Virus record (IMG/VR): IMGVR_UViG_3300021181_000032
Span: 1-29,340 of that record
Strand: one strand, 5' to 3'
DNA: 29,340 nt
Origin: a virus
A program made the translations under genes and the position numbers. Shown in pieces: positions 1 to 28,911 of the stretch (position 1 is the first letter of the stretch; each line of letters begins with the position of its first letter). The notes under the pieces are model-generated. The model worked only from the letters and a program-made list of their open reading frames with translations. It had not been told where the DNA came from and did no database searches.

Positions 1-1119
1 CGCTGGCGGCTTTTCTGGGGGTGTCTGGGGGGTAGGTGCCTCTTGAACTGGACGCGGTTCTGCGGCCTTCCCTGCGATTTCACCGTCTGCTATTGTACTA
101 CTCTTGCCTGTAGATTGTCTTACCCCCAGAGTAGCCTCGGCAGCAGCACGTTGTGCGGGGTCCATAATATCAGGTGGAAGGGGCGCGCCCGTATTAGTAT
201 CAGTGGTGGTTCCTTTACCCAGAGGCTTGAGTATCGCGTCAACTTTACGACCCTGTCTGCCACTCCCTACACCTGTTCCACTGGTGTCTGAAACAGGCTC
301 ACCTCTTGCCGGTCCACGCTCTCCATGACCCATCAAGCCAAAGCCTGCACCCATTAACCCCTGTTCGACGATACCGCTTGTTAAGTCGCTTACTCCCGGA
401 GTACCGCCAGTTGCCCCTGTAAGCGCTAGATTACTGATAGCGTTACCAGCTACGCCTGTACCCGCTCCAATAGCTAGACGCCCTGCAACCGAGCCACCTA
501 CTCCCGGTAGAACTCCCATTGCTGCGCTTGCCGCACCGGCTTCAAGCATACCCGTTGGAATTTGGCTACGTATAGTTTGATTAGTCGCGTCCTCGTCCGT
601 CATCGTTTGACGTAGTATACTATAATCTGGAAATTTCTCTGCCTTCTGCTCAGGCGTCATTTGCTTAATAGCAGACGCCGCTGAACCTGCAAAATCCGTT
701 GCACCTATTGCGCCAAGCCCTAGAGCGGCACCGACGGGGCCACCGACTGCTCCACCCCCGACACCTGCGACTAGACCTGGAATTTGTTGCTCAATACCGA
801 ACAACGCTCCATGTAAATAATGTCTATTCCATCCCGTTGCCGCTTCCTTACCGGCAGGGGACATATCGTTGAAAGCATCAAGGGCAGCGGCGCGATGGTA
901 ATCGGCTTCTTGGCTGTTATATTTAGTTGTCTCGTCATCAGGGCTTATTAGACTTGACGCAACATGCAGTCCCGCCATTGAATTATGGAAAACATTGTCG
1001 AGGTAATTCATATGGTCAGAGGCAGTCGGCGCTTGATCTGACTGCGGTGTAGGCGAGGGTGTATCGCTGCCAGCGTAACCACCAGCAAAATCTGGTACGT
1101 AAAAGTCGTCGTCAGCCAT
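1..1119 (-). CDS. Large virion protein, probable internal/ejection protein, partial
   Basis: The open frame starts at ATG 1119 and runs off the left edge after 373 codons, so only the N-terminal part is present. It is Gly/Ala/Pro-rich. A glycine-zipper-like stretch near residues 118-150 (LVAGVGGGAVGGPVGAALG) and others near 190-240 could insert in membranes, as proposed for ejected phage proteins. It is the last of three large genes after the GNAT-like gene, where T7-type phages encode internal virion proteins. The ribosome site GAGAG, 4 nt before the ATG, is half of the palindrome at 1121-1135, which fills the gap to the upstream stop. The family is not recognised; the role is inferred from position and composition. 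Confidence 0.75.
   Translation of the reverse strand, partial: MADDDFYVPDFAGGYAGSDTPSPTPQSDQAPTASDHMNYLDNVFHNSMAGLHVASSLISPDDETTKYNSQEADYHRAAALDAFNDMSPAGKEAATGWNRHYLHGALFGIEQQIPGLVAGVGGGAVGGPVGAALGLGAIGATDFAGSAASAIKQMTPEQKAEKFPDYSILRQTMTDEDATNQTIRSQIPTGMLEAGAASAAMGVLPGVGGSVAGRLAIGAGTGVAGNAISNLALTGATGGTPGVSDLTSGIVEQGLMGAGFGLMGHGERGPARGEPVSDTSGTGVGSGRQGRKVDAILKPLGKGTTTDTNTGAPLPPDIMDPAQRAAAEATLGVRQSTGKSSTIADGEIAGKAAEPRPVQEAPTPQTPPEKPPA
120..134. repeat. Dispersed palindrome copy 1
   Basis: TTACCCCCAGAGTAG. Copy of the TTACTCYNRGAGTAA family, inside the partial left-edge gene; on the coding strand it reads ATLGV. Confidence 0.7.
390..404. repeat. Dispersed palindrome copy 2
   Basis: TTACTCCCGGAGTAC, perfect 11-bp core, inside the left-edge gene and read as GTPGVS. 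A decayed relative, CTACTCCCGGTAG, lies about 100 bp away at 499-511. Confidence 0.85.
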
Positions 1120-1120
1120 T

Positions 1121-1135
1121 TTACTCTCAGAGTAT
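1121..1135. repeat. Dispersed palindrome copy 3, intergenic
   Basis: TTACTCTCAGAGTAT with a perfect core. It fills the gap between two genes: its right end touches the stop codon of the 1878-residue protein (1135-1137), and its left half supplies the GAGAG ribosome site for the ATG at 1119. Confidence 0.9.
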
Positions 1136-4100
1136 TATTGTGGTGGTATTGCCGGTTCTCCTATTGGTCGTCGAGCCCATCGTCCTATAGCAGCAGGGAC
1201 GGATGCGCTTTCTGTAGGCGCTTGCCCCGGTATCGCGCCAGTCGGATTTCTGAACCACTGCCACGCAGCAGGGAGCGGAGCAGTTGACTCAGTGGGTGCA
1301 GTAGCTGGGTCAAGCCCAAGCGGGTTCTGCGCTATACCTAAAGGTGTCTTACCTCTTAGTTTCTCCTCTATTGCCGCTGGTACCGACGCCGACTGTCCGG
1401 TGTAACCGGGGGGTGGTATAGCTGTGGCCGATGATGGCTCTTTGTCAGATGGCTTGTTCTTACCATATTCTGCTCTTGCCGCCATTGCCTGCTTAAAGCC
1501 TATAGGTGACATATAGAATGGGTCTTGCCCCGGTAGAGTAATTTTAATTCTATCTCTACCACTACTATCTTTATCATGCTCCCAGTTATCTTCTTTGAAC
1601 GCTTTACTCGTAACTAAGGTGTGCATATAATCAGCGGCAGAAGTGGGTGGCATACGGTTGTAGCGGGCAATGTCAGTTGTGCCATACCCAAGAGCATGTT
1701 GGTTCTCGGGTGAAGGGATAATTTTATTAAGCTGGTCTTGTTGCTTACTATCAATTGTAGATGCTACTCCTGGAGTAACCGGCGCAGAAGGCGGTGCAAA
1801 CGCATTGATTATAGCCTTATTCGACTCAAAATTTAGATTGCTCTCAGTTCCATCTTCAGCCCGTATGGGATGGAATGGGTCAAGTGGCTCGTCTGACTTC
1901 GCACGTTCTTTGCGTTGATCCTCTGACTGTTGCGCTGCCTGCCGCATTGCTTGTTGCTGCGCATCCAAGATTGCACGTCTGTTCTGTTGGTCTTGTGAAA
2001 ATCCTTCTCTTTGCATTTCAGACGTAGCCCTAAATTGTTCTGACTCTTTTGTTGCCGCGATCTTAGCCTTTTCTGTTGCATCATATTGTTTTGCCATGCG
2101 TTGTTCGTGCGCCATTTTCATTTGGTTATTCAAGTCAGCACGGCGAGAGCCTATCTCACCATTAATAATTGACTTGTTGTTCATATTATATTTGTTCCAC
2201 ATGTCCAGTCGTTCATGGTATTGCTGAAGTGCCATTTGGTCAAAGTGACGATCACCAGTCATTACTGGTTGTCTCGGGAAATCAATAACCTGATTGGTTC
2301 CCGGTATTACCGGATTACCCTTTTCGTATAATTGGTTTTCCATTTGCTTTCGATATTCAAGCAGATGTTTTTCCCCTTGTGACTGTATAGCATCAACTTC
2401 AGCTTCACCTGTTGGTGTCGTTGCTAGCTGTGCTGTTCCGTCACTTCCTCCCGCTACTTGAGTAGGAGCTTGATCAGACGTATCAGATGCGGCAGTGGGA
2501 ATTGCTGTGTCACCACCTCCTGATGAGTCATCACTCAACATGCTCATAGCTTGCTGTTGCTGTACCCTGTCTTGATAGTCGTCACCACCAAGTCCATACT
2601 CGCTACCCCAGTCGCCCTCACCCGAAGGCTGACTCCCAGAGTAATCTATGGGGTTGGGTTGAACAACAACGTCGCCACCGTCTTGGAACCTTGTGACTGC
2701 TCCACCACGTCGGTATTGTTTCGTGGGGGTAGTTGTCGGAGAAGTATATTTCGACAGGTGTTGACCCATCATCTTGAAGAAGCCTATACCTGATGCAAGA
2801 CCATGTGCTGCCATTTTTAGTTGGTCTGGCCCAACATTGCCAGCCCATATAGGGTGCCCCTTTAGGTTTGTTTGTTGAACATAGACTGAACCGTCATCGT
2901 TGACTTTTGCATTCATATGTTTTCCATCAGGCACATGATGATAACCCATTACAATGTTATCAACGGCGTCTTGTGTATCTCCTCTGTTAAGGGCATGAAC
3001 AGCTTTCTCACCATATTCTGCGCCCTTATTTCTTAGATGTAATAGGTACGACGCATTTGCTGAATTAGCATCGTCTTGATGCCCTGTTAATATTCCAAAC
3101 CTGTTGATACTCTCGATAGAAGCAAGATGACGCATATTGGGTGTCAGTATACCATTGGGGTCAACTGCTTTACCTATTGCATCTATATGATTATCATCCA
3201 TTGCTCCGTCGTTACCGTAGAACCCTTGTCGGTTCTGTGCTTCATCTTGTGAAGGTATTCCACCAGACGGTGCAAGACCATGATCCGCCAATAGAGACTT
3301 TGCGCCAGCCTGTATACCGTCTGTTGCTCCACGCGAAGGGTTGCCCCACCCATCCATGATTTGCGGTGTACCAAGCGGCAAGCCAGTCTCAGATGGACCT
3401 TCTTCGAGTAAACCTTGGAGATGGCGTTGCATCGTCATTTCACCTTGGTCGTCTTGACTACCGCCGTATTCAGAGTCATCACCCCCAGAGTAATCGTCTA
3501 CGGAACCGCCGTTCGCGAACCTTACTACCATGCCACCACGAGCATAACGTCCTACGACGCCACCCTTAGCGTGACCGCCGTGACCAACAACTGCTGGACT
3601 AAATTGACTACTACCAAATCCACCATAAGAACCAGCAACCGCTGTACCCGGTGCAACACCCATACCAGCAGGTGCTGGTCCCATATTAGAACCGTAACCA
3701 CCCGGCATTCCACCCGGACCTGTTGGACCCATCATATTAGCTGCGTTAGGTGCTGGTGCATTCTGATTTGCCGCAGCTAATGCTGTTGCAGGGTTGAACC
3801 CTGTTATACCAGTGCTCTGACCAGTCATTCCAAATGGTGCAGGACTTCCTAGTTCATTAGCCATATTCGCTGGCGATGGCGTACCGGGAGGAGCAGGCGT
3901 GCCTTGTATTCCTCGTATTCCCAGTGTTGGATTTGCTGCCGGATACCCCAAAGCTGTTGCAGGTGAAGTAGGCGCAGTCTCACCGGCAGGACCAAGTCCG
4001 GGATGTCCGGGCGACCCCGTGCCAAACGGTGCTGATGCATACATACTTATTTGAGCCGGTGTCAATGTATGTGTTGAAGGAACTCCTAATGCTGTTAGGT

Positions 4101-6771
4101 TACTTTTTAACGTTGCAAGTTGTGACGGAGTAAGAGCATTTAACGCACTTTGTGACGGACCAGTAACAACCGAACCAGATGCCCCAGAAGTGCCAAGCAT
4201 ACCCGGAACACCTGTAACATTCATCGCTTCTGCCGCAGTTACACCCCCACCGTGACCACCACCGCCAGTACTACCAGTCGATCCACCCCCACTACCTCCA
4301 CCTCCACCACCTCCACCACCTCCACCCCCACCACCAGTACCACCAGCTGCACCACCACTCATACCACCAGTACCCCCACGTTGCCCTGTCGCCGTAGCAG
4401 CACCTTGAGAAGCGGCAGTAGCGGCACCCTCGTCACCACTGGCAGGACCAATACTCATACCAAACCCAAACCCGGTTTGACCACCCGCAATACCACCTTG
4501 ACCTTGACCACCGGCAGCCTCACCACCGCCACTGCTTGGATCACCGCCAGCCGTTCCACCACCAGAAGTGCCATCGCCTGTACCGTCACCAGGACCGGGT
4601 CCACCACCACTCCCCGGACCACCGTTGTCTAAGAAGTTTACCATGCCACCAGCTTGAAAGCCCGGAGTTGGCACTGCTCCACCCTTACTCTGGAAGTAAG
4701 AGTCGTCCATACTAGACATATCTGGCGCACCACCCCCACCGCTGCCACCACTACCCCAATTACCCTTACCCCATAGTGAGTTCTTTGTACGCTTCATTCG
4801 GGCAGTGCTTGCTGTCGCCGCAGGCATACCGCCCATTGTTCCCATAGCACTACCCAGCATTGACTGTCCTTGCTGGACTTGCTGTTGAAGACCTTGTACT
4901 CCTTGATCTGAAGTAACAACAGGTGGAGGGATAGCAGGCGGTGGTTGAACAGAAATAGTTTGCGGCGACATAGCCGGGTTATTTGGATCAACATCACCAC
5001 CCTCTTGATAACCAAAACTAGAGTCATCAAGATAACCAGCGTCGTCAGGCGCAGATGGTTCAGCACCCGAATAATTCGAGTAATCAGCACCAGACGGAGG
5101 TACAACAGGTGTAGAAGGTGCAGACTGTGGAGGTGGTTGTTGTTGGCTTGTAGGAACGTTATACGATAACCACGTTGGATCATTCGGACTTACATGAGTA
5201 TTAATAAGCGGTGCGCCCATCATAGGCCCACCACCGCCACCACGACCACCACCCGATTGGTCTATATTAGGCCGCTCTATTAAGTTAGGTTGAGGTTGTG
5301 GTTGCGCTGCTGCCTGCCCCTGAGACGGAACAGCAGACACAGGCTGTGCTTGCCGTGTCGGTTGATTGGCGGCAGAAGCGGGAGGTTTTATTGGGACAAG
5401 ATTACCCTGCGCGTCACGGGTATAGCCATAGTCCCCAAAGCGTGGCGGTAGAGCAGGTGCGGTATCAGGGGGAACCGTTGACGGTCTTGCCTCAACAGGT
5501 GGTAATGGCTGTGGACCTTGCTGCGGACCACCATAAGGTGTAGTGCGTGGATCGACATTAGTCGTGTCTGTTGCTCTGGGAGTAACAGACGGACCTTGCT
5601 GCGGAGGTGGTACAGGCGTGCGACCACCATAAGGTTCAATTGGTGCAGAAGGTAAAACGTTACGTGGTGGATAAGCAGGGCCACGATCCGCACTTACTAT
5701 CGGTCCTGCTTCCGTTGGTATTTCCTGAGTAGGCGTTGCTGGCCCCGGTCCCGGCCCCTGACCAATATCCTTTGGAATAGCTGGACCGGGTGGCGCTGCG
5801 GGAACCGGCCCGCTCTCTGGTAATGGGAGTCGATGCTGTTGCTGTAGCGCAATACGCATAGCAAGAGCATCATCACCACCTGCAAGGTCAGCATCAGAAG
5901 GAGCAAGCTTCTTAGGCGTAGGCTTCTCTTCTACTGGTGTAGGCTTTTCAGCAGGCGCAGGTTTGGCTTTGGTCTTGGCCTCTTCAGGTTGAGTAGCCCC
6001 AATATCCTTTGGTAAAGATCTGTCATATGCCTTTGCCCTAGCAATATGTTCAGGGAATGCCGGTACACCGGGACCACCTTCTGTCATACCCTCATAATGA
6101 TGCTCCCATGATCGTGCAGCATCTTCAACATTATCTTGTTTTTTCAAATCATCTATAGCACGTCCATATGTAGGATTAGTAGCAATTTCATGCTGTATAA
6201 AACCCCAATTAGCTTCATAACTACTTGGGTCTAAATTATTAGCCGCAGCATATTTTTCAAATTCTGTACGGCGTGGACTATCCTTTGTATCAGTCCATTG
6301 TGCATACCCCCAACCACCACGTCCTCCTTCTGGTTTCCCCTCCTGTAAGTTCTTAAAATTACCACTCTCATAACCCATAACACCAACAGCACCAACTGCC
6401 TGTTCACGCGTTAGGCCGTATTTTTGCATCATATCGCCAGTAAGGCGTGCAGCAGTAGCGTTACCGCTTGTGCCATCATCCGCACCACCACCCCCGCCCT
6501 CACGCGTATGTGTGCCAGTCCCTTGTTGTCCTTGTATCCCTTGCCACCACTTAGCGTGTGACATCTCCATTTCTTGTGGTGAGCCTAAATCATATTGTCC
6601 ATTTGAATAATTAAAGAACTTGCCATTTTCACCTTGCCCTGACTGGCGCAGACGCATGGTATATAATTGCATTAACATTTGGTTCATTTGTCGCTGCATA
6701 CCGAGCTTCTGAGCGGCAAGGAATGCCTTAATGAAGCCGTCAGCGAAAGAGCCGCCGTAAAATCTAGCCAT
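1135..6771 (-). CDS. Giant virion protein with N-terminal phage-tail-lysozyme-like domain
   Basis: 1878 residues. The ATG at 6771 overlaps the preceding stop by one base (TAATG); a longer frame opens 31 codons upstream but would sit inside the previous gene. Residues about 105-255 resemble the phage tail lysozyme family: GYESGNF at 133-139 places Glu135 as the likely catalytic acid, followed by GGWGYAQWT at 152-160. The family cleaves peptidoglycan during genome entry. Then come long Pro/Gln/Gly-rich disordered segments, a poly-Gly run (about 820-850), three RGG-V-RF-GG-like basic/Gly motifs (about 700, 1065-1105, 1350-1400), a more globular part (about 1170-1340), and a Gln/Arg-rich coiled-coil region (about 1530-1650). 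By position it is an ejected internal protein with the role of T7 gp16. The lysozyme call is good; the rest is inference. Confidence 0.85.
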   Translation of the reverse strand: MARFYGGSFADGFIKAFLAAQKLGMQRQMNQMLMQLYTMRLRQSGQGENGKFFNYSNGQYDLGSPQEMEMSHAKWWQGIQGQQGTGTHTREGGGGGADDGTSGNATAARLTGDMMQKYGLTREQAVGAVGVMGYESGNFKNLQEGKPEGGRGGWGYAQWTDTKDSPRRTEFEKYAAANNLDPSSYEANWGFIQHEIATNPTYGRAIDDLKKQDNVEDAARSWEHHYEGMTEGGPGVPAFPEHIARAKAYDRSLPKDIGATQPEEAKTKAKPAPAEKPTPVEEKPTPKKLAPSDADLAGGDDALAMRIALQQQHRLPLPESGPVPAAPPGPAIPKDIGQGPGPGPATPTQEIPTEAGPIVSADRGPAYPPRNVLPSAPIEPYGGRTPVPPPQQGPSVTPRATDTTNVDPRTTPYGGPQQGPQPLPPVEARPSTVPPDTAPALPPRFGDYGYTRDAQGNLVPIKPPASAANQPTRQAQPVSAVPSQGQAAAQPQPQPNLIERPNIDQSGGGRGGGGGPMMGAPLINTHVSPNDPTWLSYNVPTSQQQPPPQSAPSTPVVPPSGADYSNYSGAEPSAPDDAGYLDDSSFGYQEGGDVDPNNPAMSPQTISVQPPPAIPPPVVTSDQGVQGLQQQVQQGQSMLGSAMGTMGGMPAATASTARMKRTKNSLWGKGNWGSGGSGGGGAPDMSSMDDSYFQSKGGAVPTPGFQAGGMVNFLDNGGPGSGGGPGPGDGTGDGTSGGGTAGGDPSSGGGEAAGGQGQGGIAGGQTGFGFGMSIGPASGDEGAATAASQGAATATGQRGGTGGMSGGAAGGTGGGGGGGGGGGGGGSGGGSTGSTGGGGHGGGVTAAEAMNVTGVPGMLGTSGASGSVVTGPSQSALNALTPSQLATLKSNLTALGVPSTHTLTPAQISMYASAPFGTGSPGHPGLGPAGETAPTSPATALGYPAANPTLGIRGIQGTPAPPGTPSPANMANELGSPAPFGMTGQSTGITGFNPATALAAANQNAPAPNAANMMGPTGPGGMPGGYGSNMGPAPAGMGVAPGTAVAGSYGGFGSSQFSPAVVGHGGHAKGGVVGRYARGGMVVRFANGGSVDDYSGGDDSEYGGSQDDQGEMTMQRHLQGLLEEGPSETGLPLGTPQIMDGWGNPSRGATDGIQAGAKSLLADHGLAPSGGIPSQDEAQNRQGFYGNDGAMDDNHIDAIGKAVDPNGILTPNMRHLASIESINRFGILTGHQDDANSANASYLLHLRNKGAEYGEKAVHALNRGDTQDAVDNIVMGYHHVPDGKHMNAKVNDDGSVYVQQTNLKGHPIWAGNVGPDQLKMAAHGLASGIGFFKMMGQHLSKYTSPTTTPTKQYRRGGAVTRFQDGGDVVVQPNPIDYSGSQPSGEGDWGSEYGLGGDDYQDRVQQQQAMSMLSDDSSGGGDTAIPTAASDTSDQAPTQVAGGSDGTAQLATTPTGEAEVDAIQSQGEKHLLEYRKQMENQLYEKGNPVIPGTNQVIDFPRQPVMTGDRHFDQMALQQYHERLDMWNKYNMNNKSIINGEIGSRRADLNNQMKMAHEQRMAKQYDATEKAKIAATKESEQFRATSEMQREGFSQDQQNRRAILDAQQQAMRQAAQQSEDQRKERAKSDEPLDPFHPIRAEDGTESNLNFESNKAIINAFAPPSAPVTPGVASTIDSKQQDQLNKIIPSPENQHALGYGTTDIARYNRMPPTSAADYMHTLVTSKAFKEDNWEHDKDSSGRDRIKITLPGQDPFYMSPIGFKQAMAARAEYGKNKPSDKEPSSATAIPPPGYTGQSASVPAAIEEKLRGKTPLGIAQNPLGLDPATAPTESTAPLPAAWQWFRNPTGAIPGQAPTESASVPAAIGRWARRPIGEPAIPPQ
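1764..1778. repeat. Dispersed palindrome copy 4
   Basis: CTACTCCTGGAGTAA, perfect core, inside the giant virion gene and read as VTPGVAS. Confidence 0.85.
2630..2644. repeat. Dispersed palindrome copy 5
   Basis: TGACTCCCAGAGTAA, perfect core, inside the giant virion gene and read as DYSGSQ. Confidence 0.85.
3479..3493. repeat. Dispersed palindrome copy 6
   Basis: TCACCCCCAGAGTAA, one change in the core, inside the giant virion gene and read as DDYSGGD. Confidence 0.7.
4685..4699. repeat. Dispersed palindrome copy 7, degenerate
   Basis: TTACTCTGGAAGTAA. Only the outer five bases of each arm pair; inside the giant virion gene, read as SYFQSK. Confidence 0.45.
5571..5585. repeat. Dispersed palindrome copy 8
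   Basis: TTGCTCTGGGAGTAA, one change in the left arm, inside the giant virion gene and read as VTPRAT. Confidence 0.7.
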
Positions 6772-8114
6772 TATCCTACCGCCCTTCTCTGGAGCAGGCG
6801 TTGTGTCGGGATGGCACCACCACTCTGTGAGCCATAGGTCGTCGATGGGCCACCACCGTTCCAATTCTTATTTACTCCGGGGGTAATTGGCCCACCATAT
6901 TGAACCCCACGCGCGTGAGGGATAGCAGGATTAGACGCACCCGGTCTACTGACAAACGTCGGTCGTGCTGGCGGCGCATAACCGCGCTCGCCACCAATGT
7001 CGTTACGCTGGCTCGCCATCTGTCTTTCTTGCCGTGCCCTGTCAATGCCAGCATAGAGTTTCTTCTGGCCTTCCCACTCCACAACATCTTTAGGCCATAC
7101 GAACTCACCCACAGTCAACCTTGCCGGAACGTCATCAGTCTCTTGCCCACCTGTTGGTGACGCTTCAGTTGGGATAGCCCCTCCCGGTGTACCATTCGGT
7201 GGTACCACACTTTGAACTGTTGCACCGGGACTAGCTGTGACATTGCCCGGATTACCTTGAGGCGGAATAGCAGGTCCACCCTCCTGCAACATTGATGTAA
7301 TAGATGGATTACCCAAAGCCGCCCCACCTAAACCACCAGCAAGTGCGCCAAACCCAGCGCTCTGCATTGCACCGACTTGTGCGTAACCTAATTGTGACTG
7401 GTTATAACCGTTCACTGCATTAACATAAGTATTCATATTCGATGCGCCAGTATTAAACCAATTTGATGGTGCAGTTAATGCTGACGAACCAGTAGAAATA
7501 TTACTCGCACCCACCCCTGCTGCTGCCGACCCAGCCCCTACACCCGTGCTAGCAAGTCCAGCAGTTGTATTAGGTAGACCACGTCCAGTATTAACAACGC
7601 CAGCCTCAAGACCAAGACCTTGTAACTTCGTAGCCTGTACTGCTGACGTACCAGCACCCGCTTCCGCTGCGGCCTGTGTCGTGCGAGCACCAATGTCAAG
7701 ACCGGCAAAGCGGGTACTGCCGGGGTTAATACCAAAACCCTCCAATTGCTCTTGCGCAGAAGACCGTTGAGCCTCTGACGCTTCGCTGACGTTTGTCATT
7801 GCAGCGCCAGCGTTTATAGATTGTTGTGCTGGCGATGCCCACTGTTGAGCTTGTGTAGCGTACTGTTGTTCGAGGGGTTGATAAGTTGTTTGATAGAGTT
7901 GCTCTTGTTCTTGTGCAAATTGTGCTGCTTGTTGTTGAGAAGCAATATCAGAAGTCATAATTTGCTGAACATAAGGTTGTTCAGCGTTCCATTGCTGTTT
8001 GGCCCAATCAAGTTGCTGTGTACCAAGTGAATATGCTTGATTAGCCGCCTGAGCAGACGCTAACGCCTGAAACATACCAGACGGATCAGCGGAACCACCT
8101 TTTTGACCACCCAT
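6771..8114 (-). CDS. Probable internal virion protein, Ala/Gln/Gly-rich
   Basis: 447 residues from ATG 8114, chosen because GGAGAG lies 5-6 nt upstream; a TTG four codons earlier lacks this. The upstream stop ends one base away (TGAGATG). The N-terminal 130 residues are Gln/Ala-rich and probably helical (ASAQAANQAYSLGTQQLD). The middle is Gly/Ala/Ser-rich. Residues about 326-349 hold DDVPARLTVGEFVWPKDVV, a motif I associate with large caudoviral structural proteins, where it reads approximately D-x-VPA-x-L-(T/S)-x-GEFV. It lies between the GNAT-like gene and the lysozyme giant, the place of gp14/gp15 in T7, so it is probably a channel-forming ejection protein. The palindrome at 6872-6886 lies in its 3' part. 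Confidence 0.82.
   Translation of the reverse strand: MGGQKGGSADPSGMFQALASAQAANQAYSLGTQQLDWAKQQWNAEQPYVQQIMTSDIASQQQAAQFAQEQEQLYQTTYQPLEQQYATQAQQWASPAQQSINAGAAMTNVSEASEAQRSSAQEQLEGFGINPGSTRFAGLDIGARTTQAAAEAGAGTSAVQATKLQGLGLEAGVVNTGRGLPNTTAGLASTGVGAGSAAAGVGASNISTGSSALTAPSNWFNTGASNMNTYVNAVNGYNQSQLGYAQVGAMQSAGFGALAGGLGGAALGNPSITSMLQEGGPAIPPQGNPGNVTASPGATVQSVVPPNGTPGGAIPTEASPTGGQETDDVPARLTVGEFVWPKDVVEWEGQKKLYAGIDRARQERQMASQRNDIGGERGYAPPARPTFVSRPGASNPAIPHARGVQYGGPITPGVNKNWNGGGPSTTYGSQSGGAIPTQRLLQRRAVG
6872..6886. repeat. Dispersed palindrome copy 9
   Basis: TTACTCCGGGGGTAA, one change in the core, inside the 447-residue gene and read as ITPGVN. Confidence 0.75.
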
Positions 8115-8115
8115 C

Positions 8116-8613
8116 TCACTCTCCAATTTTACTCTGAGAGTATTCGTGTACTTGTATTATATTTGTTTTTTCAATAGGTGCAAATTCTACCTTTGGTGGT
8201 TTTTTACCTGTATTAACAAATTTACAATCTTCTTCATACATGCCCATAACCACTAAGCCTTCCCCACCCGGAAATACGTCGTCAATAATTGCTTCTTCTT
8301 TGAAACCAATATGCATATTAAATTTACGTGCTCGCCTGTTACCCTCTGGTACACGTCCAAATAGTTTCTTTACTTTACGTACTTTAAACACATAATTGAA
8401 TACTGCCCAAAGTATTTCTGGTTGTGCCCCATTTGGCATAAAGATAGCAGAATGTATCTCCATGCTATGACCATTATCCTCCATTAACAATACTCCACTC
8501 ATAAGGCGATCCTTGCTGTCGTAACACGCAATAGAATATATCTTAGCCCCAAGATTAACTTTTGCTTGGTCAGCTATTAGTTTAATAGCGTGTGCTTCAT
8601 TTATTCTTATCAT
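8116..8613 (-). CDS. GNAT-fold virion protein, T7 gp13-like
   Basis: 165 residues. The ATG overlaps the fibre-gene stop by four bases (ATGA), typical of translational coupling. The segment NRRARKFNMHIGFKEE at 92-107 matches the GNAT acetyltransferase pattern N-x-x-A-x-x-F-x-x-x-x-GF, and the preceding beta-rich part (SGVLLMEDNG, SAIFMPNG) fits the fold. T7 gp13, an internal virion protein, has the same general GNAT-like look and the same place after the nozzle gene and before the large ejection proteins. Whether this copy acetylates anything is unknown; a structural or assembly role is more likely. Its last codons contain the palindrome at 8129-8143 (EYSQSK). Confidence 0.8.
   Translation of the reverse strand: MIRINEAHAIKLIADQAKVNLGAKIYSIACYDSKDRLMSGVLLMEDNGHSMEIHSAIFMPNGAQPEILWAVFNYVFKVRKVKKLFGRVPEGNRRARKFNMHIGFKEEAIIDDVFPGGEGLVVMGMYEEDCKFVNTGKKPPKVEFAPIEKTNIIQVHEYSQSKIGE
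8129..8143. repeat. Dispersed palindrome copy 10
   Basis: TTACTCTGAGAGTAT, perfect core, in the final codons of the GNAT-like gene (EYSQSK), 15 nt before the next gene's start codon. Confidence 0.85.
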
Positions 8614-9326
8614 GTCACTCGTATCATTAGAACTGAACCATTACGATATACTCCGCCAACTGGTACGCCTGCCGTCGCCGCCGCTGTATCGTCAGTAGCA
8701 TTAATTGGTGATAAAGCAATTGTTGGAGCTACACTCAAAGTCAAAACACCAGTAGCACGATTAACATTTAAAGGTCTACTAAGTACAGCTCCAGTATCAT
8801 CAATAGAAATCAAAGTAAAGTTACTCCCAGAGTTAGAACCACTTTCTGGGATTTGATCACCTAATTGTAACTGCCAACGCCAACTTACTGCACCGGGCGA
8901 AGTCCCTGTTCCACCAAGAATTCCCCGTTGGTTTCCTGATGTAGCATAAAGTCCTATTAAATTACTACCCTGAAAGTAAGTTGGTCCGGTTATTACACCG
9001 CCAGTCAACGGTAAGACCGCACCCCATGTCGCGTTAACACGACCATAATAACCACCATCAATTGGCGCATCAGGAAAACTAGGTGGACCTACTGGACCTA
9101 TTGGACCTTCTGGACCCGGTAAACCTGGTGGACCAGTTGGTATATTTTTAATTGTCTCTTGTAATGCAAAAATTGATGCACCTTGAAGGTTACTAGATTT
9201 GGCTACGCCCTGAGAGTTGACAATCAATATGTTAACCGCTTGCTTAAGCGCAGCCACAGCCGCAGCAATACTCGGAAGAGTAGCACCCGGATCAGGAATA
9301 GTAATATATGGCGAATTACTAGGCAT
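8610..9326 (-). CDS. Tail fibre-like protein with collagen-like segment
   Basis: 238 residues, one base after the nozzle-like gene (TAACATG). Residues 1-62 are Ala-rich and probably helical, suited to trimer formation or attachment to the virion. Residues 65-82 (GPPGLPGPEGPIGPVGPP) form six Gly-X-Y triplets, the collagen-like repeat common in phage fibres. A beta-rich part follows, with LPLTGGVITGPTYF at 105-118, a phrase typical of fibre shafts, and the C-terminal sequence PVGGVYRNGSVLMIRVT that often ends fibre tips. It is short for a complete receptor-binding fibre, so it may be a side fibre or spike accessory. The palindrome at 8821-8835 is read here as SNSGSN. Confidence 0.82.
   Translation of the reverse strand: MPSNSPYITIPDPGATLPSIAAAVAALKQAVNILIVNSQGVAKSSNLQGASIFALQETIKNIPTGPPGLPGPEGPIGPVGPPSFPDAPIDGGYYGRVNATWGAVLPLTGGVITGPTYFQGSNLIGLYATSGNQRGILGGTGTSPGAVSWRWQLQLGDQIPESGSNSGSNFTLISIDDTGAVLSRPLNVNRATGVLTLSVAPTIALSPINATDDTAAATAGVPVGGVYRNGSVLMIRVT
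8821..8835. repeat. Dispersed palindrome copy 11
   Basis: TTACTCCCAGAGTTA, perfect core, inside the fibre gene and read as SNSGSN. Confidence 0.8.
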
Positions 9327-9327
9327 G

Positions 9328-11142: not shown

Positions 11143-11144
11143 GT

Positions 11145-11451: not shown

Positions 11452-11466
11452 TTACTCCCAGAGTGT
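11452..11466. repeat. Dispersed palindrome copy 13, intergenic
   Basis: TTACTCCCAGAGTGT, perfect core, between the spike stop (11473-11475) and the ATG at 11447, for which it provides the GGGAG ribosome site. Confidence 0.9.
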
Positions 11467-17230: not shown

Positions 17231-17245
17231 TTACTCTAAGAGTGT
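17231..17245. repeat. Dispersed palindrome copy 16, intergenic
   Basis: TTACTCTAAGAGTGT, perfect core, between the capsid terminator and the ribosome site of the adaptor gene. On the minus strand it directly follows the terminator T-tract. Confidence 0.88.
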
Positions 17246-18377: not shown

Positions 18378-19547
18378 TTAGCGGCGAACGCGACCATCCC
18401 TCAGAGCTTCTTGGATTTGACTTTCGATCAGACGATATTCGTCGTCACGACCAGCGTACTTTCCGCGTGTAACATCTGAATAGAATTGCGCGATCTCCGC
18501 ACCTGTTACTATAGGCTTATCGGGGGGAGCTTGTGTCTGCCCCGGTCGCGCTCTGCCCGGTGCTGCAAGACTTACAAGATCGACAGCCGGGGTGGTTGCA
18601 GGGTTACTCCTAGAGTGAGTCGCGTTCCCACTCCCAGAGCTTTCTGCCCCGTTGCCCGGCTGTGATCTTCCAGTCTGTACAGGACCAGAAGCAGCCAGTT
18701 CCGCCTGATACCTCTCAAATGTCGCCACAACCCTGGAAGCTTCTCCACGGTCAAAAGCGTGCATCAAGATTGCTTTGCGTTGGGTTCCATACATGGGGTC
18801 AATCTGAGCCAGCCATGTTTTGAACCCTTCGTCGTCATTCTGTGCTTCCCAATCAGGTACTCGCTCTTTAAGCGCCTGATAAACCTGCGAACGTGCGTCT
18901 GCCGCAACGTGTGTTTGCACGCCACTTAAAGACTGACGCACTTGTTGAATTTCACCACGTACTGGTGCTAGTTCTGCCTCTGCCACTTCACGGGCAGCGC
19001 GACGAGCCATATCAACGAGTTCTTTACTCCATTCCTTCTCATCTTCAGGAGTAACATATCTCTTTGGAACAAAATTATTAACTGACTGTTGAGAGGTGGC
19101 AGGAGAGGATACCGTAGCAAGGAGCCGCTGCATTTCTCCGACACGGTTGACAAGGTCACGGTTTTCCTGTGACGCTTTTTCAAAGCGCCCAACCATGGCC
19201 CTAAATTCACTCTCAGAGTAATGACGATCTTGTTCTTGACCATTACCCTGACCATTACCCCGCTGTTGGGGGGCAGGTGCGGGCGCAGGTTGAGGTGAAG
19301 GTGATGCATTCCTCAATATAGGATTTGGTTGCGCGCGGGCGGGCTGAGCCGGTAATTCTGGAATTGGTGGTGTAGGAGAACCAATGTCAGCGAACACCAT
19401 CTTCCCCGGTTGTCCGCCACCAATCCGTTGCTGCTCTGATAACTCGTTCGCTCGTGCAGCCGCACGCCTGACAGCTTCAGGAAGATGAGCGTTCGGGTCA
19501 GGTGTATTCGTACGTACGGTTCTTGTTTGTTCGTTTGGATTTGCCAT
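18378..19547 (-). CDS. Capsid scaffold protein
   Basis: 389 residues, one base after the preceding gene. Long Pro/Ala/Gln-rich low-complexity stretches (about 55-105 and 285-330) flank a central coiled-coil part (about 110-250; RFEKASQENRDLVNRVGEMQ). The C-terminal basic segment (AQFYSDVTRGKYAGRDDE near 343-360, ending DGRVRR) is the kind that binds coat protein. Position immediately before the capsid gene, the high helical content and the basic tail are standard for podophage scaffolds. Two palindrome relatives lie in the low-complexity tail and one near residue 110. Confidence 0.85.
   Translation of the reverse strand: MANPNEQTRTVRTNTPDPNAHLPEAVRRAAARANELSEQQRIGGGQPGKMVFADIGSPTPPIPELPAQPARAQPNPILRNASPSPQPAPAPAPQQRGNGQGNGQEQDRHYSESEFRAMVGRFEKASQENRDLVNRVGEMQRLLATVSSPATSQQSVNNFVPKRYVTPEDEKEWSKELVDMARRAAREVAEAELAPVRGEIQQVRQSLSGVQTHVAADARSQVYQALKERVPDWEAQNDDEGFKTWLAQIDPMYGTQRKAILMHAFDRGEASRVVATFERYQAELAASGPVQTGRSQPGNGAESSGSGNATHSRSNPATTPAVDLVSLAAPGRARPGQTQAPPDKPIVTGAEIAQFYSDVTRGKYAGRDDEYRLIESQIQEALRDGRVRR
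18604..18618. repeat. Dispersed palindrome copy 17
   Basis: TTACTCCTAGAGTGA, perfect core, in the scaffold gene and read as THSRSN. A decayed copy, CACTCCCAGAGC, lies at 18629-18640 (SSGSGN). Confidence 0.85.
19207..19221. repeat. Dispersed palindrome copy 18
   Basis: TCACTCTCAGAGTAA, perfect core, in the scaffold gene and read as HYSESE. Confidence 0.85.
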
Positions 19548-19548
19548 G

Positions 19549-21228: not shown

Positions 21229-21243
21229 TTACTCCCAGAGTGA
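21229..21243. repeat. Dispersed palindrome copy 19, intergenic
   Basis: TTACTCCCAGAGTGA, perfect core, just upstream of ATG 21223 and supplying its GGGAG. It abuts the separate 16-bp palindrome at 21243. Confidence 0.9.
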
Positions 21244-22728: not shown

Positions 22729-25029
22729 TCATTCTCCCGCTTGGGGTGTCGTTACTCCGGGGGTATTACCCCCACCTCCCGGTGGCATTGCGCCCGCCGG
22801 TGGACCTTTACTGGCGGGTCCAACAACGTTTAGTTGGGGACCACCTTTAGCTGGGCGCGGTGCTTGCTGACCTTGAGCCTGCGCCGCTCCATGCTGACCA
22901 GCCAATTGCGTATTCGCAGCCGCCTCCTGCCCTTGAGCAGCCCCGGTTTGCGCAGCCGCTTGAGCCTTCTGCTGATTGTTAAGTTCCTCTTCGGTGGGGA
23001 CGATATCTGCGCCGGGAATATTGAGATGGTCCGCAACCTGTTTAAGGACAACTGCACGTCCCTTCGGTCCAATAATCGACATGTCAATCGGATTAGCTGT
23101 GATTTGTAGAAACTCAAGTTCCCGCTGTATCTGGGCTTCCTTAGCCATGGCGACGTTAACACCGAGTATTCTAACTTCTTCTTGCCCATCAAGCAGACCT
23201 GAAGTATCTGTAAGCATAATCATATCAAGAAGGTTTGTTATCAACCCTTCTACTATATCTCTATCAATGTTCGATGCGACGGTTTGAAGTATCTTCGCAG
23301 CGTTCTGCATGAGCATAGCAAGCCCAGAAGCAGTACGACCAGTCGGTCCCGCTCCGGGCATACCTTGCACAAACTTAGGAATAGCGGACATCTCGTCCGC
23401 CAACGTACTAAACGCAGTATAGACAGCCATTAACTCTTGGGAATTACTTTGCGGTTGCCAGAATGAAATCGCAGGTTGAGTATTATTACCAAATGGATCA
23501 GACTTGATGTGCCAACGTTTCCAAGGATACAGTTCCTCACCGTCCTCACCGTCTGCCAATCGGTCGTCGCTAATAGTAACTTGTGGTCCACTCGCAATGC
23601 TGAGATTATTAACAAGTGCTCGTAGAGTGGCATTCGCCACGGTACTAATATCAGTGAGCAAATCCGGGAGTCCGTTACCAACGACAGTGCCCGGCACTTT
23701 TTCAAAAGAGGTAAGGTAATAAATATGGCGTTTTCGCGGCGATGGGGAAAGTTGAACTTTGATAACATATCGCCCTATCAGCCATGCTTCAATAAAATAA
23801 TCACGCGTCGGATCAGGTATCATTGGAGCAGGGAAGCCTGCCTCTAAAATCTGCTTACCCTGAGCCCACCCACTGAATTGTAAACATGCGATCAGTCCTG
23901 ATTGGTTAAATCGAGGGTTCTCTCGGGACTCAAGTATTGCTCGCTCTGCGTCGGTCTGGTCCCAATTATCAACAAGACCTCCACGACCATAATCGTCCAG
24001 AACAGCTCTGACAGCTTGTTGATCAAATCCGGGGAGGTCGAGTAAATCATTTAACTCTTTTCGTGTAACTCGTGATCTTTCAATGACATTTGCATCAGCT
24101 ATATTTGCAACCCCCGGTGTCCAGTAGATATCAAATGGACTAACACGTTCCCAACACAAATAAGGTTTCTGCGTTGTGAGCGGATTACTCTTGAGAGTAT
24201 TAGGGTCACGCTGCCATTCTACGTTGGTTTTAATTCTAACTACTGGCCCTTTAATAACTCCGTATGGGAAAATTGGTAGATCAACTAGGAACTCTGCGAA
24301 TGCTGTATAGAACCCGCCTTGTGCAAGAATTTCTTGAATTTTATCTTCCGCAATTTTTGCCTTCTTCGCCGCATTTCTCTTTGCCGCATCACGCGCTGCC
24401 GTTTCGAGTTCGGTAAATCTATCTCGTATGGCATTAGCATCAGGTAATGGTTCAGGGGGTGGTGGCGCTGGTGGTTGTTGTGCTTGAGCAACTGCGGGCT
24501 GTTGCGCGTTTTGAGTGTGCATCGCGGCCACACCCGCCGCATGCGCCTGCTGAGCATGTAACGCTTGTAAATGACCTTGAACTGCCCCTTGTATTTCTGA
24601 CTCTACAAGTTTCTGTATGGACTGGTATATCTCAGGTGGTACGGGGGGATCGGGCGAAGGCTCAAGCCCCCACGGTCGTTCAGTCCCAAGATAAACATCT
24701 CTCAAGAGGGACGTAGTCCCTCGCGCTTTCATCGCAACGATGCGCGCGTATACCTGTGATCCTCCGAATTTTCTTATCTCTTGTAGAATGTCTTCTTCGT
24801 AGACACCATTAAACGCGCGAAGTGCTCTCAAAAGTCTATGTGCCCAGCCGGCGCTCGTGTTATCTCGATGCCGCCGCATCAATGTAAATTGGTCATTTAT
24901 AAAGCCGGCTAGGCCAGTTAATTCTGCAACGGGGGGAAGCTGCGCCTGCGCACGGATAGCGGCTTCGCGCTTAACCTGTGCGTCTGTATCTGCGCCGCCT
25001 ACAACGCGTAAGACCCCACCAAGAGGCAC
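22729..25029 (-). CDS. Portal protein
   Basis: 766 residues. It starts at GTG 25029, the only credible start, with no Shine-Dalgarno. The core matches podophage portal proteins: an N-terminal part with RLLRALRAFNGVYEEDILQE, a wing section with KPYLCWERVSPFDIYWTPG near 300, then crown-proximal parts with TSFEKVPGTVVGNGLPDLL and TGRTASGLAMLMQNAAKIL near 610. An Ala/Gln/Pro-rich insertion (about 150-210) and C-terminal Gln-rich tail are low-complexity. The portal is the dodecameric ring through which DNA enters. The palindrome at 24185-24200 lies within it, and another lies in its last codons. Confidence 0.9.
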   Translation of the reverse strand: MPLGGVLRVVGGADTDAQVKREAAIRAQAQLPPVAELTGLAGFINDQFTLMRRHRDNTSAGWAHRLLRALRAFNGVYEEDILQEIRKFGGSQVYARIVAMKARGTTSLLRDVYLGTERPWGLEPSPDPPVPPEIYQSIQKLVESEIQGAVQGHLQALHAQQAHAAGVAAMHTQNAQQPAVAQAQQPPAPPPPEPLPDANAIRDRFTELETAARDAAKRNAAKKAKIAEDKIQEILAQGGFYTAFAEFLVDLPIFPYGVIKGPVVRIKTNVEWQRDPNTLKSNPLTTQKPYLCWERVSPFDIYWTPGVANIADANVIERSRVTRKELNDLLDLPGFDQQAVRAVLDDYGRGGLVDNWDQTDAERAILESRENPRFNQSGLIACLQFSGWAQGKQILEAGFPAPMIPDPTRDYFIEAWLIGRYVIKVQLSPSPRKRHIYYLTSFEKVPGTVVGNGLPDLLTDISTVANATLRALVNNLSIASGPQVTISDDRLADGEDGEELYPWKRWHIKSDPFGNNTQPAISFWQPQSNSQELMAVYTAFSTLADEMSAIPKFVQGMPGAGPTGRTASGLAMLMQNAAKILQTVASNIDRDIVEGLITNLLDMIMLTDTSGLLDGQEEVRILGVNVAMAKEAQIQRELEFLQITANPIDMSIIGPKGRAVVLKQVADHLNIPGADIVPTEEELNNQQKAQAAAQTGAAQGQEAAANTQLAGQHGAAQAQGQQAPRPAKGGPQLNVVGPASKGPPAGAMPPGGGGNTPGVTTPQAGE
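22752..22766. repeat. Dispersed palindrome copy 20
   Basis: TTACTCCGGGGGTAT, one change in the core, in the last codons of the portal gene and read as NTPGVTT. Confidence 0.75.
24185..24200. repeat. Dispersed palindrome copy 21, 16-bp variant
   Basis: TTACTCTTGAGAGTAT, with a centre one base longer than the consensus, in the portal gene and read as NTLKSN. Confidence 0.7.
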
Positions 25030-25077: not shown

Positions 25078-25093
25078 TTACCCCCCGGAGTAA
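25078..25093. repeat. Dispersed palindrome copy 22, 16-bp variant
   Basis: TTACCCCCCGGAGTAA, upstream of the portal gene, between its possible promoter and the T-rich end of the hairpin at 25110-25152. Confidence 0.7.
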
Positions 25094-25307: not shown

Positions 25308-25910
25308 ATGCCAATCACAGAGCACAAGATAAGGTACCTAGTAACAGAAATCGCCAAAGACGTGGTAGAGATAGACAATATACTGTTTCATCTCAATATT
25401 ACGCGTGAGGAATACCTAAGACTTTCTGGTACTCGCGCTTTCAAGGAAGCGCTCGTAGTCGCGCAGACTGAATGGCAGGGCGCAACAAATACCCATAAGC
25501 GAGTTAAACTCAAGGCTGCGGCCATCGTCGAAGAACTGATTATGAAAGTATTCTTTGCTTGCACCAAAGACGACCAACCACTGAACTCTAAAGTGAAAGC
25601 ACTTGAGACCATTGCAAAAATCGGTGGTCTAGGCGCGCTTGAACCAGCGGCAGGCACAAGGGAAGGTACAATGGGGAATATTTTTAATCTACAGATAAAT
25701 TACTCCGAGGGTAATACAGAGCAAGTGCAATTGGGTGGCCCGATTGTAGATGTTGATGAGTACTCCGAGAGTAACGAAGACGAGATCAGCGATAATATCC
25801 AAGAACATGTCAACGAGAATAAAGTCTCTAACGCTCAAACTTCCAATATCCAATTTCATGGTTCATCCCTTTCGTCTGTATTTGCTAGCGATGACTTGGA
25901 ACCATTATAA
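25308..25910 (+). CDS. Terminase small subunit-like protein
   Basis: 200 residues, the only complete gene on the plus strand here. AGAGAG lies about 10 nt before the ATG. Residues about 12-55 (KDVVEIDNILFHLNITREEY) look like a helix-turn-helix, followed by a helical region (KLKAAAIVEELIMKVFFAC) and KVKALETIAKIGGLG, a phrase common in phage small terminases. The acidic C-terminal tail (150-200) would contact the large subunit. The small terminase recognises the packaging site. Two palindromes are read in the tail as NYSEGN and EYSESN. Its last 55 bases overlap the convergent gene. The call rests on the helix layout and the nearby large terminase. Confidence 0.72.
   Translation: MPITEHKIRYLVTEIAKDVVEIDNILFHLNITREEYLRLSGTRAFKEALVVAQTEWQGATNTHKRVKLKAAAIVEELIMKVFFACTKDDQPLNSKVKALETIAKIGGLGALEPAAGTREGTMGNIFNLQINYSEGNTEQVQLGGPIVDVDEYSESNEDEISDNIQEHVNENKVSNAQTSNIQFHGSSLSSVFASDDLEPL
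25700..25714. repeat. Dispersed palindrome copy 23
   Basis: TTACTCCGAGGGTAA, one change in the core, in the small-terminase-like gene and read as NYSEGN. Confidence 0.78.
25760..25774. repeat. Dispersed palindrome copy 24
   Basis: GTACTCCGAGAGTAA, perfect core, only 60 bp from copy 23 (centre to centre), in the small-terminase-like gene and read as EYSESN. This is the closest pair in the window. Confidence 0.85.
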
Positions 25911-26547: not shown

Positions 26548-26861
26548 TACTCGTCCTCATCTGTAAGTGTAGGGTCCGGCATGACAGAGCCTTGTGTATA
26601 TCGCTCATAGTTCAAGCGAAATGCTAATGTTGAGACCGCAGTGGTTAAACTATGTGACCAGCCATCAGTAAATGATAAAATTGTTTCAGTCGATCTACCC
26701 ATATCAGAGTCAGACTCATTATTCACAATAGCAAGAGCAAGACCCATCGCTTGTATTTTACCTGCCTTTGCATCGCGTAATGCTTCACGCAACAATATTA
26801 TAATGCGCTCATTTGGAGCCCACTTGGTCTCAGCTACTCTAAGAGTAATAGGGGTAGTCAT
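26547..26861 (-). CDS. Small conserved-looking protein, unknown
   Basis: 104 residues, one base after the preceding gene (TAACATG). It contains a helix (NERIIILLREALRDAKAGKI), a strand region (AMGLALAIVNNESD) and a C-terminal helix after DGWSHSLTTAV. This order resembles small unnamed phage proteins near terminase genes. The palindrome at 26834-26848 forms codons 5-9 (ITLRV). Confidence 0.68.
   Translation of the reverse strand: MTTPITLRVAETKWAPNERIIILLREALRDAKAGKIQAMGLALAIVNNESDSDMGRSTETILSFTDGWSHSLTTAVSTLAFRLNYERYTQGSVMPDPTLTDEDE
26834..26848. repeat. Dispersed palindrome copy 25
   Basis: CTACTCTAAGAGTAA, perfect core, in codons 5-9 of the 104-residue gene (ITLRV), so close enough to the start to act on initiation. 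Confidence 0.85.
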
Positions 26862-27055: not shown

Positions 27056-28609
27056 TCAAGTCCAAGCCTTACTATTAAAGGGTGCGCGTCGTGCATGTCG
27101 CTCACGTGCTCTTTTAGTATAACCGTAGGCGTACGAGTATGCTTCCGCGCTCGACGCGGTCAAGCACGCATACTGTAACGCGTCCTGCACGTGAGACCAT
27201 GGTGTATCTTTTTCGGGGAGCGGTCTATCGGTCTCATATTTATTTTTAGGGTAACGGTACGCACCCAATAACCCTTCGACTAATAACGGACACTCATCCT
27301 CGTCAATTAATATTTTACCCTCACCCCTAACATTCCCAAGGAAGAACCCTTCCACTGCACCAACGCGTCTATCAATGTCGTTGCTTACTGCCGGAACATT
27401 AGGTAGACCCAAATGTGACAATAGGTTAAACTCATTCATCTCAAACAAACTAGACCGTGCAATACCGGCAGGGTCGCCAACAATAATGAACCTACGTCCG
27501 GCAAAGCGAGGTGTGGCGAGCGCAGGTTTAAGTTGTTCCTCAATGTGTTGACGCAGTCCCATCCCAGAAGTCGGTATCTCTTTTAGAACTAACAACTGAC
27601 CTCTATGTGTGAGTTGTGTTATAACGGCTCCGGGGTTCCGCCCAAAGTCTTGACCAATAATAAGCATTCGGTCGTCCACAGGCTCAAGGCCACGACGTAT
27701 ATGAAAATCATAAATAAAGCTCTCTCCATATACGGCAGAGCCAGAGGGATCTTTTCCGAAATCTGCGTCCACATAACGACGAATATAATCAGGGGTACCA
27801 GTCGCGACAAGCCGCTCATAATATTTGCGTCCCTGCGCTCGACGTATTTCTAAGTTCTTTTGTATTTGTTCTGGGCTTACTCCGGGAGTAGGGTCGATAG
27901 GAAGTATAACCGTGTCAGGCGTTTGCTCTAAGTGCTCAAGGTTCTCAGCGTTAGGCTCACGCCCTCCCGGTTGCCGAAATATCTCCCACTCACGCACTTC
28001 ACCCAATAGCCCACGTTTTATGAACTTAGCCCACGGTGCCATCTCGGGAGGCATATTGGTATCAGCCATTATGCCTTTCCACGTAGGCACACCCAACTCG
28101 TCGTTAGGGTATCGCCCACATCGCCCCGCGATGTCACTAATCAAGTCTATGTCGATCTCAATACACTCATTAATAAAAGCTGCCGTAAGGTTGGTACTGA
28201 GAAGGCGGCGCTTATCTTCTGGTTCGTCAAGAGGAACAAAAAGCCATTCCGAGTGAATATCACCCTCACGAAAATAAAGCGTAGATTCGGACACCCTCCA
28301 ATCAGCAATAAGGGCGTATCGCGATAATACGTCCTTAAGCACAGTATCCTTAAGTTGTTTGAGAGTTTGTCGGATGATCGCATAGCGTGTGAACCTTCTT
28401 GGGTTGTTAGGACGTACAGGGTCCTGAAACGCAGGCATCTGCTGTTTCATTCTCCGAGTGAGATCGACTAGTGAGCCGGTAGTTTTGCCAGACCCAACGG
28501 GTCCACATAGTAAACGCCCGAATGATTGTGACTGCATGAACCTACTAATAGTAGGGGGCGCATTATAAATAAACGTTCTTTCAACTCCGCTATATTGATG
28601 AGGTTTCAT
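27056..28609 (-). CDS. terL: Terminase large subunit
   Basis: 517 residues. The ATPase half has Walker A GPVGSGKTT at 36-44 and Walker B-like AAFINE at 143-148, with Glu148 as the catalytic acid. The nuclease half has QDFG (Asp321), VGDPAG (Asp379) and QDALQY (Asp476), the three acidic positions of the RNase H-like terminase nuclease. It pumps DNA through the portal and cuts it. The ribosome site before ATG 28609 is weak. The gene shares a minus-strand operon with two small genes upstream. One palindrome at 27877-27891 is read as TPGVSP. Confidence 0.95.
   Translation of the reverse strand: MKPHQYSGVERTFIYNAPPTISRFMQSQSFGRLLCGPVGSGKTTGSLVDLTRRMKQQMPAFQDPVRPNNPRRFTRYAIIRQTLKQLKDTVLKDVLSRYALIADWRVSESTLYFREGDIHSEWLFVPLDEPEDKRRLLSTNLTAAFINECIEIDIDLISDIAGRCGRYPNDELGVPTWKGIMADTNMPPEMAPWAKFIKRGLLGEVREWEIFRQPGGREPNAENLEHLEQTPDTVILPIDPTPGVSPEQIQKNLEIRRAQGRKYYERLVATGTPDYIRRYVDADFGKDPSGSAVYGESFIYDFHIRRGLEPVDDRMLIIGQDFGRNPGAVITQLTHRGQLLVLKEIPTSGMGLRQHIEEQLKPALATPRFAGRRFIIVGDPAGIARSSLFEMNEFNLLSHLGLPNVPAVSNDIDRRVGAVEGFFLGNVRGEGKILIDEDECPLLVEGLLGAYRYPKNKYETDRPLPEKDTPWSHVQDALQYACLTASSAEAYSYAYGYTKRARERHARRAPFNSKAWT
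27877..27891. repeat. Dispersed palindrome copy 26
   Basis: TTACTCCGGGAGTAG, perfect core, in the linker region of the large terminase (residues 240-244, TPGV). Confidence 0.85.
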
Positions 28610-28640
28610 TTTATGTAACTCGTCTGCGCTGCCGCTTGAC

Positions 28641-28889
28641 TCATGAGCTTTTCAACTTGTCACTTATATGCACAATAGTGTGCTCGTCGATACCACCTTG
28701 TACGAAGTCATATAGATGTGACTCGGTCTCCCCCGCAAATATCCATATGTCAATCGGTAGACCAATATCCTTGCCAACGATTTTGATGAACCCATCTAAC
28801 GGCTCAGCCCTGAGTTTATCAAGGTTCTGGAAGCTTAACCCAACCATCAGTATCTTTACATCATTTAGTGTGACTACACCTTTTAACAT
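28641..28889 (-). CDS. Small protein, unknown
   Basis: 82 residues. GGAG from the palindrome at 28897-28911 lies about 10 nt before ATG 28889. Alternating strands and helices (VKILMVGLSFQNLDKLRAE, then LPIDIWIFAGETESHLYDF) suggest a small alpha/beta fold. No family is recognised. It lies directly upstream of the large terminase in the same operon. Confidence 0.68.
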   Translation of the reverse strand: MLKGVVTLNDVKILMVGLSFQNLDKLRAEPLDGFIKIVGKDIGLPIDIWIFAGETESHLYDFVQGGIDEHTIVHISDKLKSS

Positions 28890-28896
28890 GACGGTA

Positions 28897-28911
28897 TTAC
28901 TCCAAGGGTAA
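28897..28911. repeat. Dispersed palindrome copy 27, at a gene junction
   Basis: TTACTCCAAGGGTAA. On the minus strand it encodes the last three residues and the TAA stop of the zinc-ribbon gene, and its GGAG serves the next gene. Confidence 0.82.

Follow-up and report, generated by a model that had tools for sequence, protein, structure and literature searches.

The virus record IMGVR_UViG_3300021181_000032, 29,340 bases long and called here in its entirety the window, encodes a terminase, a portal protein, a capsid protein, an internal virion protein and a large protein with a lysozyme domain, nearly all of its genes lying on the minus strand. Scattered through it are copies of a short dyad-symmetric sequence, read in the original prediction as a selected, dispersed DNA-binding site of a phage. 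That prediction was right, and the array proves to be a property of a whole phage group, more general than had been reported. The original interpretation is thereby supported in part; what it overlooked is that the sequence of the palindrome changes from lineage to lineage while its gene-edge positions are retained.

Palindromic sites in the window

A copy is present at every one of the 28 positions originally listed, and a 29th, weak copy with a 4-bp spacer lies at 9268. Description as a 15-bp palindrome holds for 25 of the 28, which match TTACTC-N3-GAGTAA with at most two mismatches; the remaining three, at 15889..15904 (TTACTCCAGTGGGTAA), 24185..24200 (TTACTCTTGAGAGTAT) and 25078..25093 (TTACCCCCCGGAGTAA), are 16 bp long, with the same arms, a 4-bp spacer and one mismatch. 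Every copy departs from the full 15-bp consensus somewhere, and the 11-bp core ACTCYNRGAGT is exact in 15 copies, as claimed. These numbers lie far beyond chance: order-1 and order-3 Markov shuffles yield 0.3-0.5 copies at two or fewer mismatches against the 25 observed, and 0.07 exact cores against 15, so that the binding site survives comparison with shuffled sequence. The pattern read backwards, used as a control, has no match in the window.

Eleven of the 29 window sites are centered no more than 40 bp from a start or stop codon, where 3.0 are expected at random, and their spacing is somewhat more even than random (coefficient of variation 0.70, p=0.04). The copy at 1121..1135 fills the junction between the stop of gene 1135-6864(-) and the start of gene 1-1119(-); that at 16806..16820 (exact core) occupies the junction of 16820-17215(-) with 16072-16806(-); and that at 17231..17245 (exact core) falls between the major capsid gene and the next gene. 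Copies lie immediately upstream of the starts of 1135-6864(-) (6872..6886), 6771-8126(-) (8129..8143, exact core), 20699-21223(-) (21229..21243, exact core) and 28641-28889(-) (28897..28911), upstream of the portal start (the 16-bp copy at 25078), and close to the starts of 11473-15144(-) (15093..15107) and 26547-26861(-) (26834..26848, exact core). The copy at 11452..11466 (exact core) is at the stop end of 11473-15144(-), and that at 22752..22766 is close to the stop end of the portal gene. Intragenic copies include 120..134 within gene 1-1119; 1764..1778 and 2630..2644, both with exact core; 3479..3493, 4685..4699 and 5571..5585; the 16-bp copy at 24185 inside the portal gene; and 27877..27891 (exact core) inside the gene for the terminase large subunit. 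Further copies are at 390..404, 8821..8835, 18604..18618 and 19207..19221, all with exact core, and at 10532..10546. The claim that sites occur on both gene strands carries little weight with nearly all genes on one strand: it holds for the sole clear plus-strand gene with sites, 25308-25910, which contains two (25700..25714 and 25760..25774, the latter with exact core).

The array across the phage group

A search with the major capsid protein encoded in the window (17313..18347, minus strand) yielded 80 related virus contigs; 18 relatives were read whole or in large part, and 13 more were added later. The array-bearing group consists of podovirus-like phages, the nearest complete relative of the window being the genome designated G001. 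No named phage gave a nucleotide match to window positions 1-8000; the SU10-like portal protein (22729..25029, minus strand) is 50% identical to the portals of Rhizobium phages RHph_TM27A, TM27B, TM29 and TM3_14A.

With a matrix fitted to each genome, at a threshold where about one false site is expected per genome, 25 genomes or large fragments carry 25-86 sites each, about one per kb. Genomes longer than about 47 kb have 35-86, with the exception of G027, which has 30; counts of 30 or fewer are confined to the window, the fragment G012 and G027. The motif contains 16-24 bits of information in the 20 genomes modeled, in most of which the sites are spaced more evenly than random at p<0.05.

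When palindromes were sought de novo, without the window's motif as a seed, a single one dominated in RHph_TM27A and in all of the first 18 relatives; the consensus differed among them and is GTTACCT-N4-AGGTAAC in RHph_TM27A. About a dozen motif classes exist within this one phage group, all of them dyad-symmetric and 15-18 bp long; lineage variants are TTACTC-N3, TTACTC-N4, TTACCC-N3, TTACCT-N4, TCACTAT-N2, TTAACTGC-N2, TTGATCC-N2 and TTGTTCC-GC. Contigs L187, L188 and L190 have quite different palindromes (TTGTTCC-GC-GGAACAA, TTGATCC-gc-GGATCAA), G001 has 72 copies of the N3 form, and motifs differ even between phages whose capsid proteins are 89-93% identical. Most contigs chosen for the candidate gene FAM6, discussed below, show such a palindrome too, with additional variants. 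Some genomes accept 3-bp as well as 4-bp spacers; the half-sites are therefore not rigidly spaced. Sparse or unusual palindromes were seen in G045 (L319-L321) and G047 (L335-L336), namely TTCCTC-N4-GAGGAA in 8 copies and TGTCAC-N7-GTGACA in 7.

A site on duplex DNA

Between relatives, the arms of the palindrome diverge by 0.07-0.11, against 0.17-0.25 at the dyad center and in the flanks (center 0.24, flanks about 0.20). The arms thus change 2-3 times less than the flanks, and the central spacer shows no such reduction; low divergence in the arms only is the mark that a dimeric protein bound to duplex DNA leaves as its footprint. The original prediction had seen paired changes in the arms and had allowed for a hairpin, and neither idea held up. 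Over 1128 sites, symmetric positions are complementary as often as under independence or slightly less often (the slight deficit may stem from the score threshold), and arm changes between relatives comprise 88 one-sided, 10 two-sided unpaired and only 6 two-sided paired cases. One-sided change of this kind points to a dimeric protein that recognizes the site as double-stranded DNA, and away from a hairpin. A protein-binding site also withstood the comparison in which relatives were examined for loss of symmetry, and the palindromes very probably constitute a protein-binding array.

Hairpins in RNA or single-stranded DNA, serving translation control, termination or N4-like promoters, are by contrast strongly disfavored, to the point of being hardly credible. 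Arms of 6 bp around 3-4 bases would suit such a structure, and gene 1-1119 at the window edge, the beginning of a giant gene, weakly matches the virion RNA polymerase family in PHROGs. But N4-type hairpin promoters require a base-paired stem and the arms here are uncoupled; folding is no better than that of shuffles in most of the eight copies tested; and one motif class is a loopless 18-bp palindrome. On the uncoupled arms and weak folding a hairpin or RNA role was rejected. So was a virion RNA polymerase at the window edge, as the probable ortholog of the edge gene in G001 (L088:230-7033) is a polyvalent protein with inorganic pyrophosphatase (InPase) and LPD39 domains and no polymerase. Intrinsic terminators fared no better: terminator-like sites in window 1-20000 occur at the level of shuffles, and the palindromes are not among them.

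Old places, new sequences

At 485 conserved gene ends in the 25 genomes, the 20 bp before starts hold 68 sites and the 20 bp after stops hold 105, 9.5 being expected in each case (7-fold and 11-fold enrichment). Both enrichments are equal in genomes whose arms have no Shine-Dalgarno-like sequence, which disposes of an explanation by GGAG-type arms. In RHph_TM27A, 19 of 46 sites (41%) fall in the 9.4% of the DNA that is non-coding (p=1e-8), the other 27 being intragenic; the stretch from -80 to +10 around starts holds 21 sites, where chance would give 6. Sites occur at junctions of every kind in that genome, convergent (both of them), divergent and co-directional, and its early region is denser than the remainder (29 sites in 27.7 kb against 17 in 33.2 kb).

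Some orthologous edges are nearly always occupied and others almost never (heterogeneity chi2 211, against 42 simulated). Individual edges are occupied in up to 11 of 12 motif classes: the start of gene family f21 has a site in 20 of 25 genomes, spanning 11 classes, and the junction at 17231, between the capsid gene and its neighbor, likewise in 20 of 25; the end of FAM6 is occupied in 17 of 23 and the end of the SNF2 gene in 14 of 22. Since the same edges are used by so many classes, the places are old and the sequences new. When close relatives are aligned, 277 of 358 sites (77%) are kept in place, and gain or loss has come about by substitution in 79 cases and by a gap in 2, the same event seen twice. 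In G001, L008 and other relatives the two genes flanking site 16806-16820 meet directly, and a clean gap of 16 bp stands in place of the site; on the alignment, this is a single whole-site gain or loss. With one clean indel event in 358 comparisons, spread of the 15-mer in the manner of a mobile element was rejected.

The window has further features. A terminator-like hairpin of 11 pairs with a T tail (17252-17281) directly follows the capsid gene, next to the conserved site at 17231. An N-acyltransferase gene (8116-8613) is retained within the structural operon of most relatives. Between the portal gene and that for the terminase large subunit (27056..28609, minus strand), the plus-strand gene 25308-25910, present in most relatives, has a helix-turn-helix-like start and probably encodes the small terminase subunit.

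A candidate for the binding protein

The best candidate for a protein that binds the palindromes, put forward tentatively from its distribution among genomes, is a novel family designated FAM6 (46251-47282, minus strand, in G001; EVB29_028 in RHph_TM27A), encoded beside the early region. It is found in every near-complete array-bearing genome; 10 of 23 genomes have a site no more than 80 bp upstream of the FAM6 start, and frequently there is a site just after the gene too. FAM6 was not detected in three distant relatives that have many or most of the core genes but show no array, namely G053, G056 and Pseudomonas phage Rollin (the palindrome search in Rollin covered its first 50 kb only); in G056 all other core genes tested are present except for the giant-protein hit. 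An AlphaFold2 model of FAM6 is confident and all-helical (mean pLDDT 83.6); it found no match in the PDB and only two close viral matches, neither with known function.

A small XRE-type helix-turn-helix protein (the YKSYSFVDKDPMID family) was rejected as the binder: it is confined to a minority of the genomes, and almost the same recognition helix accompanies different motifs. This protein (L088:17857-18186) adjoins a RecB-like exonuclease in the genomes that have it.

Relation to described arrays

The closest described array in form is that of the Cluster O mycobacteriophages, Corndog and its relatives, which carry a perfect 17-bp dyad with 7-bp arms, TGTTCGG-N3-CCGAACA, in more than 30 intergenic and genic copies; the repeat is nearly invariant in five close actinobacterial phages and similarly placed in relatives, and the authors who described it suggested that a dimeric protein binds it but could assign it no function (PMC4351075). 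Shared with the present arrays are the dyad with a 3-bp spacer, the copy number (72 N3 copies in G001), the mixture of genic and intergenic sites and their similar positions between relatives. The sequences differ, TTGTTCC-GC-GGAACAA of L187 and L190 coming nearest; and here, unlike in Cluster O, there are about a dozen motif classes, degenerate sites, edges kept across changed sequences and, in some genomes, integrases. No mycobacteriophage is among the terminase and portal matches listed from the phage collection.

The original prediction had named stoperators and start-associated sequences of mycobacteriophages as partial parallels, and that comparison was apt. Stoperators of Cluster A (L5, Bxb1) are 20-30 dispersed repressor sites, mostly outside promoters; their consensus diverges between relatives and tracks repressor distance, and a site precedes the repressor gene (PMC6550527). 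Each is, however, an asymmetric 13-14 bp sequence that binds a monomer and follows the direction of transcription (PMC6550527). The present arrays resemble them in having many dispersed sites, genic as well as intergenic (25-86 per genome or large fragment), with a consensus that diverges between relatives; the sites here, on the other hand, are dyad-symmetric, 15-18 bp long and without orientation, and nothing related to a known repressor was recognized. For want of asymmetry and orientation they do not belong to the Cluster A stoperators. In Cluster K, the start-associated sequences are non-palindromic, have one orientation, stand 3-7 bp from the start and are conserved per gene family (PMC3203893). 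Repeats near the start codons of many genes are common to both; those described here are palindromic, occur inside genes as well, and are more numerous after stops than before starts (105 against 68 in the nearest 20-bp bins). Palindromic, operator-like repeats scattered through a temperate phage genome are also found in phiC31, where the conserved inverted repeats (CIRs) bound by the repressor are fewer and are tied to early promoters.

How the array may work

Symmetric gene-edge sites throughout the genome, the denser early region of RHph_TM27A and a lineage-specific sequence together make the system look most like a stoperator or operator array. One phage-encoded protein, acting as a symmetric dimer, would bind all the palindromes on double-stranded DNA, at gene edges genome-wide or inside genes far from an edge; once bound, it would hold down or truncate transcription in the fashion of a stoperator. 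Sites adjoining early genes might serve as operators in addition, and a site ahead of the regulator's own gene would provide autoregulation. If regulator and sites are driven to diverge together, for example by superinfection immunity, new recognition sequences would arise in the same places. A probability of about 0.5 seems right for this explanation as a whole: a stoperator-like array for one phage-encoded regulator, with conserved places and diverging sequences. A silencer or regulator site stood first among the roles originally suggested and is still the best of them; by analogy with stoperators, silencing of transcription has about an even chance of being the array's main role.

Tyrosine integrases, overlooked by the original prediction, are encoded in 10 of 41 records tested, in several at the extreme end of the record, as may be expected of an excised prophage; these relatives possess the same kind of array. 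In two of them the surroundings of the integrase were scanned with Pfam, and no known repressor came to light. Relatives L182, L187 and L190 have IMG names of another form, probably the numbers of isolate genomes. Several observations weigh against a stoperator-like array. No tyrosine integrase was detected in the window's own subclade or in RHph_TM27A, so that an immunity role is conjectural there, and a prophage search of GTDB species-representative bacterial genomes with the terminase gave weak matches only and no close relative. FAM6 contains no recognized DNA-binding domain, searches of Pfam, PHROGs and PDB folds gave no match, and its selection from about 40 families was made post hoc. 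Its divergence correlates only moderately with that of the motif (r=0.57, against 0.67 for a VWA-domain gene), and its contrast between same-motif and different-motif pairs is not unique to it; covariation with the motif is thus not decisive and was set aside as proof. G045 and G054, whose palindromes are sparse or doubtful, also lack FAM6. Finally, the preference for gene edges may partly reflect where coding sequence leaves room.

The lack of an integrase in the window's subclade and in RHph_TM27A would also suit a phage protein that takes no part in lysogeny and regulates the lytic program only, working at gene edges as, for instance, an activator or a protein-dependent terminator. Enrichment is strongest right after stop codons, and a similar array exists in the Cluster O mycobacteriophages, for which there are no lysogens (PMC4351075). 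Such a role is nevertheless unlikely: an array of this kind is also present in relatives with an integrase, intragenic sites are in the majority in RHph_TM27A, and convergent, divergent and co-directional junctions are occupied alike. The even spacing, at about one site per kb through both early and late regions, raises the different idea that the array organizes phage DNA, by nucleoid-like or ParB-like coating, condensation or packaging. We consider this quite unlikely, as the sites follow particular orthologous gene edges and not a ruler, and the early region of RHph_TM27A is the denser.

A binder encoded by the host, to whose regulator each phage adapts its sites, is improbable. Motif differences could follow hosts, and the phage-encoded binder is so far a candidate only, but motifs differ between phages that share 89-93% capsid identity; this alternative would also predict sites in the host genome. 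Very improbable are recombination points between modules, or modification marks. Gene edges are where mosaic joints would lie, and the site at 16806 does differ between relatives by a clean gap; yet gain and loss otherwise go by substitution, sites occur within conserved genes too, and unlike sequences at the same edges would not recombine together.

Dispersed palindromes and stoperators were already known. What is new, and surprising, is the conservation of position with rewritten sequence: a phage group with about a dozen motif classes at conserved edges shows that arrays of this kind are under selection and evolve together with some other factor. The cultured Rhizobium phages RHph_TM27A, TM27B, TM29 and TM3_14A allow direct tests of what the array does, and the candidate family lets site and binder be paired across many specificities. 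It may be, though the odds are somewhat against it, that these phages have a palindromic stoperator-type system outside the actinobacteriophages, with an undescribed, all-helical family of binders and sites that have been jointly rewritten many times in place; if so, they would amount to a large natural library of specificities in immunity or regulation.

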